64,000 bases of DNA from contig JAAZOD010000015.1 in NCBI GenBank assembly GCA_012797975.1, positions 1 to 64,000 of the forward strand. The letters are read 5' to 3'. The first letter of the stretch is position 1; each line of letters begins with the position of its first letter. Source of the DNA: Pelolinea sp. (lineage in GTDB: Bacteria; Chloroflexota; Anaerolineae; Anaerolineales; Anaerolineaceae). The position numbers and the translations under genes are program-made. Positions 31,765-40,115 of the stretch are shown piece after piece. The notes under the pieces are model-generated. The model ran no database searches and was not told where the DNA came from. It worked only from the letters and a program-made list of their open reading frames with translations.

Positions 31765-32649
31765 ATGGCAGAAAAGATCAATAACCAGGAAGAAAATACC
31801 GTTCCACGTTTTGCCGTTCTGCAATTATCAGGATGCGCCGGATGTGAGGTATCTTTGTTGAATGCGCATGAATGGACGGAGCAATTCAAACTGACCTATA
31901 TGCCGCTGGTCTCCAGCGCCTATGCTGTGCCCGAGGTCGACATCCTGCTCATCAGCGGCGGGGTGCGAACGGACGAAGATACCTACCACTTGAAGAACGC
32001 GGTCAAGAACGCGAAAAAGGTCGTGGCGGTCGGAACGTGTGCCATCTCAGGCGGTGTGGCCAATCTGGGAAACCGGGATGAGGTGCGCCAGCTTTTCCTG
32101 AGCCGGCAAGATCGCCTGGAAGTGCCGCGCATGCTGCCGCGCTCCAGACCGGTGGACGATCTGGTCTCCATCGATCTTTACCTGCCGGGCTGCCCTCCCA
32201 CCCCCGAGCTTTTCATGGCTGCGCTGACCAACCCGGCCGGATATCCGGCCAGCATGATCGTATGCCAGGAATGCGGGCGAAAAAAACTGAAGGAACCCAA
32301 ACCAGATCATTTTCTCGGTTTTCAGAAAGGCAAGGTGGATCCCGAAATCTGCCTGATCAACCAGGGGTATGCCTGCATCGGCACCAGCACCCGCGGGGGA
32401 TGCCGCGCCCCCTGCACACGGGCAGGGCACCCATGTGTGGGCTGCCGCGGTCCATCCAATGCGTTGATCGAGAAAGATTCCCAGGCATGGCTGGAAGCGA
32501 TCCAGAAAGTCTTTCACGGAATGACGAACATCGCGGACGAGGAATTGAAGGAAGCGTTGCTTTCACCACAACTGGCGTTGTTCCTGTTCCAATTTTCGGA
32601 TTACGCAGGTGGAAATAAACCTCCCCGCCCCAAAGAAAAGGTATTGTAA
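31765..32649 (+). CDS. [NiFe] hydrogenase small subunit, group 3-like (MvhG/HoxY type)
   Basis: 294 aa. LSGCAGCEVSLL near residue 19 starts the proximal [4Fe-4S] site, completed by GTCAISGG and YLPGCPPTPE. The C-terminal part adds CQECGRKKL and the series GYACIGTSTRGGCRAPC, GHPCVGCRGP, which would hold the medial and distal clusters as in F420-nonreducing hydrogenases. There is no twin-arginine signal, so the enzyme is cytosolic. It passes electrons between the NiFe site in the next gene's product and a soluble partner. Stop TAA shares one base with the next ATG, giving coupled translation. No diaphorase, Hdr or MvhD gene lies nearby. Confidence 0.9.
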   Translation: MAEKINNQEENTVPRFAVLQLSGCAGCEVSLLNAHEWTEQFKLTYMPLVSSAYAVPEVDILLISGGVRTDEDTYHLKNAVKNAKKVVAVGTCAISGGVANLGNRDEVRQLFLSRQDRLEVPRMLPRSRPVDDLVSIDLYLPGCPPTPELFMAALTNPAGYPASMIVCQECGRKKLKEPKPDHFLGFQKGKVDPEICLINQGYACIGTSTRGGCRAPCTRAGHPCVGCRGPSNALIEKDSQAWLEAIQKVFHGMTNIADEELKEALLSPQLALFLFQFSDYAGGNKPPRPKEKVL

Positions 32650-33962
32650 TGACCACACTCACATTTCCTCTCAGCCGCATTGAAGGGCATGCGCGGGTTG
32701 AAATCGAGGTCCAGAACGGAAAGGTCATCTCCACCCGTTTCAAAGCCACCGAGATGCGCGGATTCGACATTTTCGTGCAGGGTGTACCGGCAGAACAAAT
32801 GCCGGTCATCGTGCCGCGCATCTGCGGCGTTTGCTCCACAGCCCATCACGTGGCATCGGTGAAAGCCCTGGAAGACGCCTACGGGGTAACCCCTCCGCCG
32901 CTGGCATCGAAGATCCGCTCTCTGCTGCTGCTTGGGCAGCTCCTTCAAAACCAGGCCACCTCTTTGTTCATCTTCACCATGCCTGACCGGGTGGGCGTCA
33001 ACAGTCTGTTCGAAATGGACACCGTTCCAGAAGATAAAGCCATAACCTTCGAAATCGCCCAGCGCGCGCTCAAGATCCGTGAGTTGGGCACCGATCTGAT
33101 CACCCTGGCCGGCGGTCAATTCATCCATCCCGTACGGGCCGTGGTGGGCGGGGTGAACGCAGGCATTCCCGCAGAACAGGCGGAGCGCATGGCGGCGCGG
33201 TTGGAGCAGGTGCTGCCCATGGCGTGCGACCTCTTCGACGCATACTGGGAGCTGACCATCCGCATGAAAGATCGCATCGGCAGTTGGGGCGATGACCAGC
33301 CGGCATACTACATCACCTCGACCGGCAAAGTGAAACCCGACTTCAACAGCCATGAGATCCGTGTGATGAACCCGGCCGGAGAATGCTGTGAAATCTTCTC
33401 GCCCAGTTCATTCCGAGAGGTGCTGGAATTCGAGGAAAGTGAATATTCGTATGCCGGCAAGACCTCCTACAAAGGCGGGGTGATCCGCGCCAATTCTCTG
33501 GCACGCGCCAACCTCACCGCCCACATGGGCACGAAAGTGGCAAACGGATATCTGCACCGCCTGCGCATCGAATTTGGCACGCCTGCCCACCCCATCATGC
33601 TCTTTGAACTGGCACGCGGCATTGAACTGGTCTATGCCATCGAACGGGCGGCACAGCTACTGGAGCAACCTTTGGATAAAGAGGATACGGACGTACCCTA
33701 CACCCCACGGGATGGCGAAGGGTATGGACTGGTGGAAGCACCACGCGGTCCTCTCATCCATCACTACGCAATCGAAAAAGGAAAGATCGCCAAAGCCGAG
33801 TTCATCATCCCGACCGTTCATAACATGCTTTCCATTGAGAGAGCATTGAAAGTGGCGGCAGAGCGGTACATCCAAGGAGATACGGTGAACATGGAACTGG
33901 AACGCGCCGTGGGAAGGGTGGTGCGGGCTTTCGACCCGTGCATCGCTTGCGCAACACATTAG
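32649..33962 (+). CDS. [NiFe] hydrogenase large (catalytic) subunit, no C-terminal extension
   Basis: 437 aa. N-terminal FPLSRIEGHARVEIE is the family entry motif. L1 is RICGVCSTAHHV (about residues 57-68) and L2 is DPCIACATH at the very C terminus; together these supply the four cysteines that hold nickel and iron. The frame ends directly after the L2 histidine, so the usual peptide that is cut off by a HyaD/HycI-type endopeptidase is missing. No hyp maturation genes are in the window. It should catalyse reversible hydrogen oxidation in the cytosol. Codon use matches the surrounding core genome. Confidence 0.93.
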   Translation: MTTLTFPLSRIEGHARVEIEVQNGKVISTRFKATEMRGFDIFVQGVPAEQMPVIVPRICGVCSTAHHVASVKALEDAYGVTPPPLASKIRSLLLLGQLLQNQATSLFIFTMPDRVGVNSLFEMDTVPEDKAITFEIAQRALKIRELGTDLITLAGGQFIHPVRAVVGGVNAGIPAEQAERMAARLEQVLPMACDLFDAYWELTIRMKDRIGSWGDDQPAYYITSTGKVKPDFNSHEIRVMNPAGECCEIFSPSSFREVLEFEESEYSYAGKTSYKGGVIRANSLARANLTAHMGTKVANGYLHRLRIEFGTPAHPIMLFELARGIELVYAIERAAQLLEQPLDKEDTDVPYTPRDGEGYGLVEAPRGPLIHHYAIEKGKIAKAEFIIPTVHNMLSIERALKVAAERYIQGDTVNMELERAVGRVVRAFDPCIACATH

Positions 33963-34040
33963 AAATTCATCGGGAATATGCTTGTTTTCCATTTTTATTC
34001 CGCTAGAATGAAAATAGATTAATATAATATGGAGGAATAT

Positions 34041-34415
34041 ATGTCATACAGCAATGGGGAACCCAGTTTCGGATTTTTATTCGCCTATTTTCTTTTTATC
34101 ATTGCCATCGTCGGTTTCTATCTTTACTGCTACTGGCGCCTTTTTGAGAAGACCGGGCGGGAAGGTTGGGAAGGTCTGGTGCCGGGGCATAACACAGTGG
34201 AAATGTTCAAGATCATCGGGAGGCCGGGCTGGTGGTTCTTCCTGCTGCTGATCCCGATCGCAAACATCGTCATTGAGATCATGGTGCTGTTCGATCTGGC
34301 AAAAGCATTTGGCAAAGATACCGGTTTTGGTTTTGGGCTGCTCTTCCTTTCCTTCATCTTCCTGCCCATCCTGGCATTGGGCGATGCCGAATACCAGGGC
34401 CCACTGACCCACTAG
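34041..34415 (+). CDS. Small membrane protein, DUF5684-like
   Basis: 124 aa from ATG 34041, chosen because GGAGGA (34031-34036) is correctly spaced for it and would lie inside a longer frame starting at 34029. Three to four hydrophobic helices with the conserved block EKTGREGWEGLVPGHNTVEM and then GRPGWWFFLLLIPIANIVIE, typical of small integral membrane proteins often seen beside signal peptidases. Function unknown. Stands alone between the hydrogenase genes and a convergent TetR gene. Confidence 0.75.
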   Translation: MSYSNGEPSFGFLFAYFLFIIAIVGFYLYCYWRLFEKTGREGWEGLVPGHNTVEMFKIIGRPGWWFFLLLIPIANIVIEIMVLFDLAKAFGKDTGFGFGLLFLSFIFLPILALGDAEYQGPLTH

Positions 34416-34426
34416 GTTGTGATTGC

Positions 34427-34458
34427 AAACAAAGACAGCCGACCGGCTGTCTTTGTTT
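34427..34458. terminator. Bidirectional terminator
   Basis: 15-bp stem AAACAAAGACAGCCG (34427-34441) with CGGCTGTCTTTGTTT (34444-34458), tiny loop, A/T-rich flanks. Separates the convergent DUF5684-like and TetR genes; its right end touches the TetR stop. Confidence 0.88.
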
Positions 34459-35068
34459 ATTGGAGAGGGAGCAGGGTAAACCGGTTCAAGGCATGGGTGA
34501 GGATCTGCTTCAATTCATACCGGTCGAGAATGGTATGTGAGATCTGTCCTTCCAAATAGAGCGAGATCAAGCCATGGATCTGCGCCCACAATGCCGTGGA
34601 TGTCAATTCTGCATCTCCCTCCGGTAAAACAGCGTTCGCCTGGCAGATGGCAACCACCTTGACCACCATGTGAAATGTCCTTTGGACCACATCCACCAGA
34701 TCGGGATATTCGTTCCCCTTTTCCAAGATCCCCGAAAACATCACCTTGAATGTGTCGCTTTCCTTCAGCGCAAATTCCATATACACCCAGGCGGTTTCCA
34801 GCAGCAATCGCCCGGGGGCAGTTTCATTTTTTTCAAATACCTCCTGCAGGGCAGCCAGCAATTCTTTGAAACCCTCGATCGAGATCGCAGCGATGAGAGC
34901 CTGTTTATCTTTGAAATGGGCGTAAGGCGCAGAGTGGCTGACACCGGCTTTCTTTGCCACCTTGCGCAAACTCAGCGCCCCCACCCCTTCACGCGCCAAT
35001 ATCTCCACCCCTGCCACGATCAGTGCATTTTTCAAATCACCATGATGGTAGGAGCTCTTATTTTCCAT
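34457..35068 (-). CDS. TetR/AcrR family transcriptional regulator
   Basis: 203 aa. The N-terminal helix-turn-helix (about residues 12-60) reads ILAREGVGALSLRKVAKKAG then VSHSAPYAHFKDKQALIAAI. The C-terminal ligand domain has ALWAQIHGLISLYLEGQ, the TetR_C_33 (WHG) form. Divergent from the aldolase operon with 81 bp between the start codons, so it probably represses that operon, its own gene, or both. The inducer is unknown; a metabolite of the neighbouring pathway is the natural guess. Confidence 0.92.
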   Translation of the reverse strand: MENKSSYHHGDLKNALIVAGVEILAREGVGALSLRKVAKKAGVSHSAPYAHFKDKQALIAAISIEGFKELLAALQEVFEKNETAPGRLLLETAWVYMEFALKESDTFKVMFSGILEKGNEYPDLVDVVQRTFHMVVKVVAICQANAVLPEGDAELTSTALWAQIHGLISLYLEGQISHTILDRYELKQILTHALNRFTLLPLQ

Positions 35069-35149: not shown

Positions 35150-35821
35150 ATGGCAGGATATGACCGGCAAAAACAAAGTGTGAGCGAGCTATGCCAGATC
35201 TTGCTGAAACGGGGCTATTTGAAAACAACCGAGGGGAATGTGTCAGTGCGCGTGGCACAGGGGACGGCCTTCGCCATCACCCCCTCCAGCTACGATTATG
35301 CACTCATGAAGGCGGACGACATCTGTGTGCTCGATTTTGGCCTGACCCAGCTTGAGGGAGACCGCAAACCTTCCATCGAGAGCGCCATGCATGCCGCCGT
35401 CTATCAGACCCGCCCCGATGTGCATGTCATCATTCACACCCACCAACCTTATGCCAGTGCGTTGGGTATTCTCAATAAACCGATCCCGCACCTGTTCGAT
35501 GAACAGGTGCGTTTTTTGGGGCGCTCCGTCGAAATCATCCCTTACGCTCCATCAGGGACGGGCATGTTGAAGAAGAACGTGCGCAGGATGATCGGCAACG
35601 GGAACAATGCTTTCATCCTGCAAAACCATGGTGTGCTGGTTTTTGGCGGGGATGCGGAACTGGCCATCCATACCATGGCACTGCTCGAAAAATGTGCGCT
35701 GGTCTACTTGCTTTCTCTGCTGACAGAAGAAAAAGTATCCAGGATTCCGCTGGCGGTGCGCGAGATCGCTTTCTCCAAACTGCGCGCCGATGAAAAGAGA
35801 TTTGCAAAGCTTGATCTGTAG
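35150..35821 (+). CDS. Class II aldolase/adducin family protein (fuculose-phosphate aldolase-like)
   Basis: 223 aa. TTEGNVSVRV (about residues 25-34) and ITPSSYDY form the phosphate-binding region, HTHQPYASALG (about 95-105) gives two zinc-binding histidines, and LQNHGVLVFG near 160 gives the third. Members are Zn-dependent retro-aldolases that cut sugar-1-phosphates into DHAP or related products, or epimerases/decarboxylases. Preceded by AGAGGAAGAA and first in an operon with a class III aminotransferase (14 bp later), an MFS transporter and an FGGY kinase, so its substrate is probably the phosphorylated product of that kinase. Confidence 0.88.
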   Translation: MAGYDRQKQSVSELCQILLKRGYLKTTEGNVSVRVAQGTAFAITPSSYDYALMKADDICVLDFGLTQLEGDRKPSIESAMHAAVYQTRPDVHVIIHTHQPYASALGILNKPIPHLFDEQVRFLGRSVEIIPYAPSGTGMLKKNVRRMIGNGNNAFILQNHGVLVFGGDAELAIHTMALLEKCALVYLLSLLTEEKVSRIPLAVREIAFSKLRADEKRFAKLDL

Positions 35822-35834
35822 AGGAAAATGAACC

Positions 35835-37289
35835 ATGAGTGAACAAAAATACGCCATCTCCCAATATCCGGATGTGGATGCCATCTATCAACAACTGGAT
35901 GCATTGGTCAGCCAACCCCTGCGCCCGCTCAAACGCGAGGCCATGCAGGCTGTGCTGGAATATTACGATTCAAAATGTGCACGTTCCAAACAGCTTACGG
36001 ATGAAGCAAAACAGATCATCCCGGGCGGGGTGCAGCACAACCTGGCCTTCAACTATCCCTTCCCCATCGCCATAGAAAAGGCCCAGGATGCTCATTTATG
36101 GGACGTGGACGGAAACCGTTATATCGATTTTCTGCAGGCGGGCGGCCCCACCATGCTGGGCAGCAATTATGCTCCGCTTCGTGAAAAAGTATTCGAACTG
36201 CTGCGTTCCTGCGGACCCGTGACCGGCCTGTTTCACGAATTTGAACTCAAGCTGGCACGATTGATCCAAAGTTATATGCCATCCATTGAAATGTTCCGCA
36301 TGCTCGGTTCCGGCACCGAAGGGGTGATGGCCGCCATCCGCGCCGCCCGCACTTTCACCAAAAAGAAGTATGTCATCAAGGTGGGGGGTGCCTATCACGG
36401 CTGGAGCGATGGGATGATCTATGGGCTGCATGTGCCGGGCACAGGCCGGCTGGAAGCCAAGGGTATTCCGCACGGCGGAACATCGGCAACGCAGGAATTC
36501 TTTCCCAACTCCCTCTCTGCTTTGCGCCGGCATCTGATCCTCAACCGTGTCCGCGGCGGTACTGCGGCGGTCATCCTGGAACCGGTCGGCCCCGAATCAG
36601 GCACGCGGCCCGTGCCGTATGATTTCAATCGAAAGGTGCGCGAATTATGCGATGAATTTGGAGCTTTGTTGATCTTTGATGAGGTGGTCACCGGTTTTCG
36701 GTTGGGCATGAGGGGAGCCCAGGGCTACTTTGGGGTGAAACCCGATCTGACCGTTTTTGGGAAATGCATCACCGGCGGCTATCCGATGGCCGGCGGAGTG
36801 GGTGGACGAGCGGACGTGGTAAGCTGTTTCGCGGCCGGCATCGGCGGAACCGGTGAGCGGGCGTATATCGGCGGCACCCTTTCCGCCAACCCCCTTTCCT
36901 GTGTGGCAGGCTATTATGCGCTCAAAGAAATGGAACGCACCAATGCACCGCTGATCGCGGGGAAAGCCGGGGACCGGCTGACCGCCGGATTGCAGAACAT
37001 CATCACCCGCCTGGGGCTGCCCTTTGTGGCATACAACCAGGGCAGCATTGTTCATCTGGAAACATCCGGTGTGATGCTGTTGGACCTGCACAACCCCATC
37101 CGCACGCTGAAAGAACTAAAACCGCGCAAACACATGATCGAGGAAATGGGCGCCGCCTACATGGCCAATGGGTTGATCACCCTGGCCGGTTCGCGCATGT
37201 ACACCTCATTAGCCGATACGGATGCAGTGATCGATGAAGCGCTCAACCGTTTTGAAACGGTACTATCATGTATTGAAGGTGTTAAATAA
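35835..37289 (+). CDS. Class III aminotransferase, glutamate-1-semialdehyde aminomutase-like
   Basis: 484 aa. PLP enzyme: LLIFDEVVTGFRLGMRGAQG holds the cofactor aspartate and TVFGKCITGGYPMAGGVGG the Schiff-base lysine K310. IPGGVQHNLAFNYPFPI and HLWDVDGNRYIDF near residues 60-95 are shared with GSA aminomutases. It is longer than HemL (about 430 aa), and the operon is catabolic rather than tetrapyrrole-related, so I infer transamination or 1,2-amino transfer on an amino sugar, amino polyol or amino acid derivative. True substrate unknown. Second gene of the operon. Confidence 0.88.
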   Translation: MSEQKYAISQYPDVDAIYQQLDALVSQPLRPLKREAMQAVLEYYDSKCARSKQLTDEAKQIIPGGVQHNLAFNYPFPIAIEKAQDAHLWDVDGNRYIDFLQAGGPTMLGSNYAPLREKVFELLRSCGPVTGLFHEFELKLARLIQSYMPSIEMFRMLGSGTEGVMAAIRAARTFTKKKYVIKVGGAYHGWSDGMIYGLHVPGTGRLEAKGIPHGGTSATQEFFPNSLSALRRHLILNRVRGGTAAVILEPVGPESGTRPVPYDFNRKVRELCDEFGALLIFDEVVTGFRLGMRGAQGYFGVKPDLTVFGKCITGGYPMAGGVGGRADVVSCFAAGIGGTGERAYIGGTLSANPLSCVAGYYALKEMERTNAPLIAGKAGDRLTAGLQNIITRLGLPFVAYNQGSIVHLETSGVMLLDLHNPIRTLKELKPRKHMIEEMGAAYMANGLITLAGSRMYTSLADTDAVIDEALNRFETVLSCIEGVK

Positions 37290-37320
37290 TCCAATGGAAT
37301 TGAATTAAGGAGGGTTCACA

Positions 37321-38529
37321 ATGGCACAAGAGTACAAACTATATAAGTATCGTTGGGTGGTTTTGGCTGTTTTCATGTTCATCAATCTGACCATGCAAAT
37401 GCTGTGGATCTCGTATGCTCCCATCACCGGTCCGGCAGCGACCTATTACGGTGTAACCGACCTGAAGATCGGGCTGCTCTCCATGGTATTCATGATCGCC
37501 TTCATCCCGCTTTCCCTGCCAGTTTCCTGGATCATCGATAAATATGGCTATCGCAAAGCGGTGAGCATTGGCGCCATTCTGATGGGTGTGTTCGGACTGG
37601 TGCGCGGTTTTGCCGGCACCAACTATGCGACGGCATTGATCAGCACCATCGGGATCGCGGTGGCCCAGCCATTTCTATTGAACGCGTGGACGACCGTTCC
37701 GGCGAAATGGTTCAAGAAAGAAGAACGTGCCACCATCGTTGGGTTCATCACGCTGGCCAACCTGGTGGGAACCGGATTGGGAATGGTCATCACGCCCATG
37801 CTGTACGAAGGCGGTACCCCCATCGCGTCCATTCAAGTGATCTACGGAGGGATCGCCGCGCTGTCATCCCTGCTGTTCCTCATTCTCGCCCGCGAAAATC
37901 CACCCACCCCACCCTGTGCGGAAGAGGGGGAGGTGCGCGCACTCATGCTGGATGGATTGAAACACGCCCTGAAAGTGAAGCCATTCCTGATGTTCCTGGC
38001 GATCTCTTTTGTGGGACTTGGCATCTTCAACGGTGTCACCACCTGGGTGGAAGGCATCATCCGGCCACGCAGCTTCACCCCCACCGATGCCGGCACCATG
38101 GGCGCCCTGATGCTGGTGGGCGGAATACTGGGAGCCGTTGTGCTGCCAGCCATTTCCGACAAACAACAAAAACGGCAGCGCTTTTTATACCTCGGGATCG
38201 CCCTGGCCATTCCGGGATTGCTGGGGATCACCTATGCGACCAATTTGTGGATATTGTACGGCTCCGCTTTCGTCCTCGGCTTTTTCCTGGTCAGCGCCAA
38301 CCCGATCGGAATGCAATATGCCACCGAAGTCACCTACCCCACGCCCGAGGGCACATCCAATGGGCTCATCCAGCTCTGCGGCCAGGCAGCCGTGGTATTC
38401 GTGTATGTGATGGAAGCCATGCGCACGGAGGATGGTTCCTTCACACCTTCCCTGCTGCTGGCAGCAGCACTGTTGGGCGTATGCCTGCTGCTCATCACGC
38501 AAATGAAAGATGTTGAGAAGAGCAAGTAA
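37321..38529 (+). CDS. Major facilitator superfamily transporter
   Basis: 402 aa with twelve predicted helices. The family A-loop is seen as SWIIDKYGYRKAVSIGAILM between helices 2 and 3, and a longer cytoplasmic loop (about residues 195-220) splits the two halves. Good AAGGAGG site before ATG. Lies between the aminotransferase (31 bp) and the kinase gene (11 bp), so it likely imports the operon's substrate. Its topology resembles FLVCR/Lpl-type or organic-acid carriers; substrate cannot be read from sequence. Confidence 0.9.
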   Translation: MAQEYKLYKYRWVVLAVFMFINLTMQMLWISYAPITGPAATYYGVTDLKIGLLSMVFMIAFIPLSLPVSWIIDKYGYRKAVSIGAILMGVFGLVRGFAGTNYATALISTIGIAVAQPFLLNAWTTVPAKWFKKEERATIVGFITLANLVGTGLGMVITPMLYEGGTPIASIQVIYGGIAALSSLLFLILARENPPTPPCAEEGEVRALMLDGLKHALKVKPFLMFLAISFVGLGIFNGVTTWVEGIIRPRSFTPTDAGTMGALMLVGGILGAVVLPAISDKQQKRQRFLYLGIALAIPGLLGITYATNLWILYGSAFVLGFFLVSANPIGMQYATEVTYPTPEGTSNGLIQLCGQAAVVFVYVMEAMRTEDGSFTPSLLLAAALLGVCLLLITQMKDVEKSK

Positions 38530-38540
38530 AGGGAAAGCCC

Positions 38541-40115
38541 ATGAAATCCAAGAGAGCGATCCTGGCTGTCGACCTGGGGACTTCGGGGGTGAAGGTTGCC
38601 CTCATTGCCGTGGATGGGCAGGTGTTGGGTTGGGATAGCGAACCATTGAAGCTGATCCTCACCCGGGATGGCGGGACGGAACAGGCACCGCAGGAATGGT
38701 GGCAATCATTTTTGACCGCATCCAAACGGCTACTCAAGAAACATCAAGAACATGCCGCCGCGGTCTATGCGGTCTGCTGTTCCACCCAGGGGGAAGGTAC
38801 CGTGCCGGTGGACGAGCGCGGTCAGCCCTTGTCGAACTGCATCCTTTGGATGGACATGCGCGGGGCAGCCAACCTGAAGAAACAGCTTCAAGGAATGCTC
38901 AATATCGATGGCGCAGCCGTGCAAAAAGTGTTGCGCTTCATCCAATTGACCGGGGGAATGCCTTCCATGACCGGCAAAGATCCCTCAGCCCACATGCTGT
39001 ACATTCGCGATGAGATGCCGCACATCTACGAGAGAACCTACCGCTTCCTGAACGTGCTGGACTATATGAATCTGCGCCTGACAGGGAGGTTTGTAGCCAC
39101 TGCCGATTCCATCCTCACCTCCTGGGTGACCGACAACCGTGACCCGAACGACATTCATTATGATGACGGATTGATCAAAACACTGGGTGTGGACAAAGAG
39201 AAATTGCCCGAGATCGTTCCCTGCACCGCCGTGGTGGGCACGTTGCTGCCCGAGGTTGCCAGAGAACTTGGATTGAAGCCGGAGACAAGCGTGGTGGCCG
39301 GCTCCATCGATAACACCGCTGCCGCCATCGGCGCCGGTGCGGTGGAAGACTACGCTATGCATGTATATATTGGCACATCCTCCTGGATGGCTGCGCACGT
39401 GCCGTATAAAAAAACCGATCTCACTTCCTCGCTGGCCTCCGTCCCCTGTGCAGTTCCCGGGCGGTATCTCTTGACCGCCCTGCAGGCCACGGCAGGCGGG
39501 AACCTCACCTTCTTACGCGATAAGATCCTGTATCATAAAGACGAGCTGCTGCAAGAAGCAGATGTGCCCGATATTTTCAAAGTGCTGGACCAGATCGCCG
39601 AGCGGGTGCCCGCCGGAAGCCATGGTGTGATCTACACACCCTGGATCTGGGGCGAAAGAGCGCCGGTGGACGATCGCAATGTGCGCGCGGGACTTTTCAA
39701 TCTATCGCTCAACAGCAACCGCGAAGACATCATCCGCGCCTTTCTGGAAGGCATTGCATTGAACACGCGCTGGATGCTGGCCCCGGTGGAAAAGTTTCTC
39801 AAAAGGAAAGTGGAATCCATGACCATCGTGGGCGGGGGAGCGCAATCGAATGTATGGTGCCAGATCTTCGCCGATGTGATGAACGTGGAGATCAAACAGG
39901 CGGCAGATCCCGTTTGTGCCAATGCGCGCGGGGCGGCATGGATCGCGGCCGCTGGTTTGAACGAGATCGGCTTTGCCGACCTCCCACAGCTGACAAAAAT
40001 TCAACATACCTACCAGCCCAAAACAGCAAACCGGGCTACCTATGATGAGCGTTTCGCGGTCTTTTGTTCTGTCTACAAACAGATGAAGGGCATCTATCGA
40101 AAATTGAACGGCTGA
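38541..40115 (+). CDS. FGGY family carbohydrate kinase (xylulokinase-like)
   Basis: 524 aa, full length for FGGY kinases. The N-terminal domain begins ILAVDLGTSGVKVALIAVDG (ATP phosphate loop), with AVCCSTQGEGTVPVDERGQP and ILWMDMRG as the sugar-binding region. AGSIDNTAAAIGAGAVED and MTIVGGGAQSNVWCQIFADV belong to the second actin-like domain. It phosphorylates a pentulose, polyol or related compound after import. Last gene of the operon, 11 bp after the MFS gene. A stem-loop follows at 40120-40145. Confidence 0.9.
   Translation: MKSKRAILAVDLGTSGVKVALIAVDGQVLGWDSEPLKLILTRDGGTEQAPQEWWQSFLTASKRLLKKHQEHAAAVYAVCCSTQGEGTVPVDERGQPLSNCILWMDMRGAANLKKQLQGMLNIDGAAVQKVLRFIQLTGGMPSMTGKDPSAHMLYIRDEMPHIYERTYRFLNVLDYMNLRLTGRFVATADSILTSWVTDNRDPNDIHYDDGLIKTLGVDKEKLPEIVPCTAVVGTLLPEVARELGLKPETSVVAGSIDNTAAAIGAGAVEDYAMHVYIGTSSWMAAHVPYKKTDLTSSLASVPCAVPGRYLLTALQATAGGNLTFLRDKILYHKDELLQEADVPDIFKVLDQIAERVPAGSHGVIYTPWIWGERAPVDDRNVRAGLFNLSLNSNREDIIRAFLEGIALNTRWMLAPVEKFLKRKVESMTIVGGGAQSNVWCQIFADVMNVEIKQAADPVCANARGAAWIAAAGLNEIGFADLPQLTKIQHTYQPKTANRATYDERFAVFCSVYKQMKGIYRKLNG

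Follow-up and report, generated by a model that had tools for sequence, protein, structure and literature searches.

Organization of the gene pair

The window considered here, a 64,000-nucleotide stretch of contig JAAZOD010000015.1 from a Pelolinea sp. genome (GCA_012797975.1), carries on its forward strand the two genes of a [NiFe] hydrogenase-type pair. Specifically, a gene for a small subunit of 294 amino acids (31765-32649) is followed by one for a large subunit of 437 amino acids (32649-33962), the two overlapping by one base. The stop codon of the former and the start codon of the latter share the sequence TAATG (32647-32651, forward strand), an arrangement that suggests translational coupling of both subunits. 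The proximal-cluster cysteines of the small subunit and the RxCGxC and DPCxxC ligand motifs of the large subunit are all present.

The small subunit resembles MvhG and VhuG, matching PF01058 (4.6e-25), MvhG itself (PDB 5odc_E, 3.6e-44) and the VhuG model (5.3e-48), yet far below the cut-off of that model. It contains exactly 12 cysteines (positions 24, 27, 92, 143; 167, 170, 196, 204; 213, 217, 224, 227), all of which are invariant among 13 orthologs and line up as cluster ligands with the cysteines of MvhG; as a first-pass annotation of this DNA had proposed, this number would be enough for three clusters, which here would be of the [4Fe-4S] type. The protein closes with a conserved C-terminal tail (SPQLALFLFQFSDY...KEKVL; 32563-32646, forward strand) in which S267, P268, F273, L274, Q276, F277, D279, Y280, K290 and K292 are invariant among the 13 orthologs, and which is still recognizable in members from Desulfobacterota. 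This tail, a possible docking element, is of low confidence in the structure model, and the small-subunit model as a whole (mean pLDDT 51.7) was left uninterpreted.

The large subunit matches PF00374 (1.6e-36); its best sequence match among solved structures is the bifurcating hydrogenase HydABCSL (PDB 7t2r_D, 1.2e-67), and 5odc_F is recovered both by sequence (7.8e-64) and by fold (E 2.4e-29). The first pair of NiFe ligands lies within RICGVC (Cys59 and Cys62; 32817-32834, forward strand) and the second within DPCIACATH (Cys431 and Cys434; 33933-33962, forward strand, including the stop codon). These four cysteines and the motif EAPRG are invariant in the aligned orthologs, and dN/dS against congeners is 0.02-0.06, with dS near saturation; purifying selection on this subunit is strong.

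Absence of a C-terminal extension

The large subunit ends in ...FDPCIACATH, directly followed by TAG, and thus has no C-terminal extension, as the first-pass annotation had observed and as orthologs confirm. Of 76 complete orthologs, drawn from Chloroflexota, Desulfobacterota and Nitrospirota, 75 share this stop codon, those of the isolates Pelolinea submarina, Longilinea arvoryzae and Desulfopila aestuarii among them, and the remaining one is a single residue longer (CATQH). By comparison, tails of 7-29 residues follow the motif in all 37 of the other NiFe large subunits taken from relatives. It had been pointed out earlier that a frameshift might conceal an extension after 33962. Because the position of the stop is shared by orthologs in independently assembled genomes of at least three phyla, and because neither of the alternative reading frames downstream of it contains anything tail-like, a frameshift or a sequencing or assembly error can be excluded with practical certainty, and we are highly confident that the tail-less family is real.

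The earlier reading had also tied the end of the protein to the L2 histidine, a link that did not survive comparison. Across 80 loci the last residue is histidine in 42 (counting the CATQH case), glutamine in 21 and lysine in 13, the other four comprising three loci cut by contig ends and one tailed outgroup (L127). The terminal histidine is therefore dispensable and is not a feature of the family.

Distribution and phylogenetic placement

These 80 loci were obtained by a scan of genome contigs, relatives gave further loci, and in total the family is spread over more than 80 genomes. Its hosts are mostly Anaerolineae, together with Desulfobacterota (including the isolate D. aestuarii) and Nitrospirota; the few records bearing other labels are short contigs that may be misbinned. 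In a tree of 79 rows, 41 members form one clade (support 100/99), apart from the sampled HydABCSL-, Mvh-, sulfhydrogenase- and group 1-like sequences of relatives. The nearest deep branch in a midpoint-rooted drawing is that of the group 3b sulfhydrogenases/NAD(P) hydrogenases (98/85; PDB 9nez), although the tree program warns that long branches meet here, such that the exact neighbor within group 3 is unsure. Consistent with a group 3 affiliation, the best nine PDB sequence matches and the best nine fold matches of the large subunit are all of group 3 types, while none of the curated NCBIfam models reaches its cut-off (VhuA, 239 of 800 bits; VhuG, 164 of 450 bits). Judged by its sequences, the family is a distinct, well-supported clade within the group 3 (cytosolic) hydrogenases.

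The sister of the member clade is a long-branched actinobacterial pair (L127:1539-3897; support 100/98, 43% identity), whose large subunit bears a 7-residue tail, EIKVVGA. It is possible that L127 represents an intermediate in the loss of the tail.

Comparison with characterized enzymes reveals both similarities and differences. The pair shares with the group 3c Mvh/Vhu hydrogenases (MvhAG of Methanothermococcus, PDB 5odc) the two-subunit fold, the 12-cysteine ligand pattern of the small subunit and 30% identity of the large subunit in the fold alignment; it differs in having no linked FlpD/MvhD or Hdr genes, in remaining under the curated VhuA and VhuG cut-offs, and in its missing tail, the match to 5odc covering the 473 residues of that chain only as far as residue 448. 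Relative to HydABCSL and group 3d, represented in the same genome by a second hydrogenase (L005), the pair lacks the linked diaphorase subunits, the 25-amino-acid tail and the linked protease, and the small subunit of L005 is only 180 amino acids long. Relatives of group 3b type carry tails of 7-10 amino acids, and group 3b enzymes possess flavin and Fe-S partner subunits. CooH (4c), Ech (4e) and the group 4g enzymes belong to another group and are described as membrane-associated multi-subunit complexes, which sets them apart from the pair. They nonetheless resemble it in having no C-terminal extension (PMC7294309; PMC12134894). The regulatory hydrogenase HoxBC of group 2b (Cupriavidus necator pHG1) likewise consists of two subunits with a naturally tail-less large subunit and undergoes the Hyp-dependent maturation (PMC7294309) that is predicted for the pair, but it is of another lineage (25% identity to HoxC) and is adjoined by a kinase-type gene. 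Published lists of tail-less hydrogenases comprise groups 2b, 2d, 4c, 4e and 4g and name no group 3 enzyme. The open-licence literature, searched for group 3c hydrogenases of Anaerolineae and for group 3 enzymes that lack a tail, yielded nothing on the family, and we found no earlier account there of such a tail-less group 3 enzyme.

Replacement of the proton-path histidine

A further property of the family, which escaped the first-pass annotation together with its separate position in group 3, is found at Gln100-Asn101-Gln102 of the large subunit (32946-32954, forward strand). In the alignment, Gln102 occupies the place of the second histidine of the HxHxxHxxHxH motif, equivalent to His104 of T. 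roseopersicina. Position 102 is glutamine in 41/41 members and histidine in 39/39 comparators (37/37 from relatives, plus HoxC and HoxG), and while the contig scan favors glutamine, one of its two peptide patterns (QNQATSLF) spanning this position, all 13 members of an alignment gathered by profile-free protein search in relatives also have Gln102. A second invariant replacement occurs at position 157, where members have glutamine and others arginine or lysine. The tailed outgroup L127 retains both the histidine and an arginine at these positions.

The authors of a study on T. roseopersicina regarded His104 as important in every [NiFe] hydrogenase they knew of, and its loss from HynL of that organism strongly lowered activity (PMC3325256). 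By analogy, Gln102 could bring about a low turnover or reflect a different proton route, and the family is thereby relevant to the question whether a [NiFe] hydrogenase can dispense with the His104 proton path.

Maturation

The genome to which the window belongs encodes, on contig C20, the tailed HydABCSL-type hydrogenase L005, followed downstream by a TIGR00072 protease and by HypA, B, F, C, D and E. A search for hyp genes and a maturation protease, as suggested with the first annotation, thus recovered both, but beside the second, tailed enzyme. For the survey of other genomes, the protease was detected with TIGR00072 and with the protein itself; PF01750 was dropped, as it missed the real protease of the window genome. 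The protease was found in all 32 members with a further NiFe large subunit and in none of six (0/6) in which no tailed one was seen, a difference (Fisher p=3.6e-7, 38 genomes) that is only indicative, given that these are related MAGs of 69-99% completeness whose independence the test overstates. The six genomes without a detected protease (G413, G292, G441, G272, G383 and G394) may owe its absence to incompleteness or sequence divergence, and in the search for tailed subunits one further NiFe match each in G383 and G441 was left uninspected. HypD is nevertheless present in five of the six, with complete hypA-F in G441, G292 and G272 and hypC-F in G413 and G383, where the contigs end at the hyp set; it is absent from four sampled genomes that have no NiFe hydrogenase (G009, G021, G044, G045). 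No [FeFe] hydrogenase was found in the window genome, G413, G441, G383 or G394, and G413, which is 99% complete, apparently has no hydrogenase, [NiFe] or [FeFe], besides the pair.

Genome content of this kind argues that the pair is very probably matured in a Hyp-dependent, protease-free manner, as is the regulatory hydrogenase (PMC7294309), and agrees with the earlier claim that protease-coupled maturation does not apply. The NiFe center would be installed by the ordinary HypABCDEF set, common to the other hydrogenase of the cell. If proteolysis does not complete the process, the checkpoint would have to lie elsewhere, most simply in a small subunit that accepts only a loaded large subunit, as has been proposed for the regulatory hydrogenase. 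A tail-less group 3 enzyme whose cell also contains a tailed one, both presumably supplied by a single Hyp set, together with relatives in which no protease was detected, offers a natural comparison for the checkpoint question, and a compact two-gene enzyme that maybe needs no dedicated protease would be attractive for heterologous production.

Two further loci deserve mention. G272 contains a group 4-like large-subunit frame (L164:5076-6200, contig C252) that ends in GADLCIACADR without a tail, in a genome with no detectable protease. In G095, where the tail-less pair is the only NiFe hydrogenase found, a relative of the maturation protease is split over two frames (L188:8240-8714, contig C10), possibly a loss in progress or an assembly error; this genome was dropped as a protease-free case, since the pieces of the disrupted gene remain.

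Genomic neighborhood

Among the neighboring open reading frames we saw no gene for a diaphorase, an F420 or Hdr partner or a Hyp protein, and across the 80 loci there is no conserved third gene next to the pair, in keeping with its initial description as an orphan. The commonest neighbor, an inositol-monophosphatase-like gene in 23 of the 80 loci, was considered as a partner and judged to be plain synteny. Directly downstream in the window lies a gene for a DUF5684 protein (34029-34415), conserved in the genus only (5 loci). It is followed by a TetR regulator gene (34457-35068), divergent from an operon (35150-40115) with the appearance of sugar metabolism (by eye, aldolase-, aminotransferase-, transporter- and carbohydrate-kinase-like genes) that is conserved in near relatives and not across the whole hydrogenase family.

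A candidate partner does occur elsewhere. Within the same taxonomic family, FlpD/MvhD is present in 17/19 members and 4/23 non-members (p=6e-6), and within the class in 25/28 members and 213/368 non-members (p=1e-3). Because three genomes with the pair (G017, G022 and G383) lack FlpD, FlpD is not an obligate partner. The earlier suggestion that a partner gene might co-vary with the pair from a distance is thus borne out as regards co-variation and not as regards dependence; that reading was right on maturation and incomplete on the partner.

Function of the dimer and alternative explanations

The best explanation of these observations is that the pair probably forms a [NiFe] hydrogenase of two subunits, located in the cytosol and belonging to a separate clade of group 3; it would be free-standing and Hyp-matured, and perhaps ferredoxin-linked. 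Electrons would pass through the distal cluster to or from a diffusible low-potential carrier, and the predicted reaction interconverts H2 and reduced ferredoxin. Ferredoxin itself is a tentative choice, suggested mainly by the lack of an obligate alternative. The main rival holds that the dimer is the hydrogenase module of an electron-bifurcating FlpD/HdrA complex encoded in trans, in the window genome by a cluster on contig C13 (L186) that contains FlpD. Among solved structures the small subunit comes closest to MvhG, which naturally partners MvhD/FlpD, the co-variation described above holds in both family and class, and a cluster with its own tailed hydrogenase in G033 illustrates that such a complex accepts a hydrogenase. 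However, FlpD often occurs where the pair is absent (213 genomes), the two were not seen linked in any of the 80 loci, and the correlation, drawn from counts uncorrected by a species tree, could stem from shared ancestry. Since some genomes with the pair have no FlpD, and descent from a common ancestor may account for the correlation, the free-standing dimer with a diffusible carrier is favored, and membership in an FlpD/HdrA complex appears somewhat unlikely.

Other proposals turn on Gln102 and on the terminus. Taken as a whole, the reading of an undescribed group 3 subgroup that is tail-less, self-standing and protease-free, with a proton route independent of a histidine reported to be conserved throughout the [NiFe] hydrogenases, which perhaps suits it to sensing or gives it an uncommon catalytic bias, strikes us as unlikely. 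That the pair is a hydrogen sensor, a slow tail-less dimer signaling to a regulator, is quite improbable: HoxC of the regulatory hydrogenase is also tail-less (ending in DPCMVCTVH), low turnover would fit the altered Gln102, and in one locus from Desulfobacterales (L103) the pair has a PAS histidine kinase nearby, but the family is not of the group 2b lineage, its nearest solved proteins are of group 3, the regulatory hydrogenase retains the proton-path histidine, and a kinase or regulator is conserved nearby in none of the 80 loci. It is very improbable that the pair has degenerated or been repurposed into a hydrogenase-like protein that performs no NiFe catalysis, for although the proton-path histidine and Arg/Lys157 are invariantly replaced and the terminal residue drifts, the NiFe cysteines, EAPRG and the 12 Fe-S cysteines are all invariant, dN/dS is at most 0.06, and genomes with the pair as sole NiFe hydrogenase mostly keep hyp genes, in contrast to the four genomes that have no such enzyme and no HypD.

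The FlpD-bearing cluster of the window genome (L186:4134-13297) encodes a tungsten aldehyde oxidoreductase, a ferredoxin-like subunit, HdrA-FlpD, a second FlpD and Fe-S and FAD/NAD subunits. The G033 cluster (L195) is of the same tungsten-Hdr-FlpD type, with the tailed hydrogenase in place of the NAD module. In L186 (6936-9452) and L187 the HdrA gene contains an in-frame TGA (DCSI-TGA-ILAPKM), and the same split recurs in L195. This TGA is probably a selenocysteine codon, and the 76 nucleotides downstream of it fold slightly better than shuffled sequences (z -2.0).
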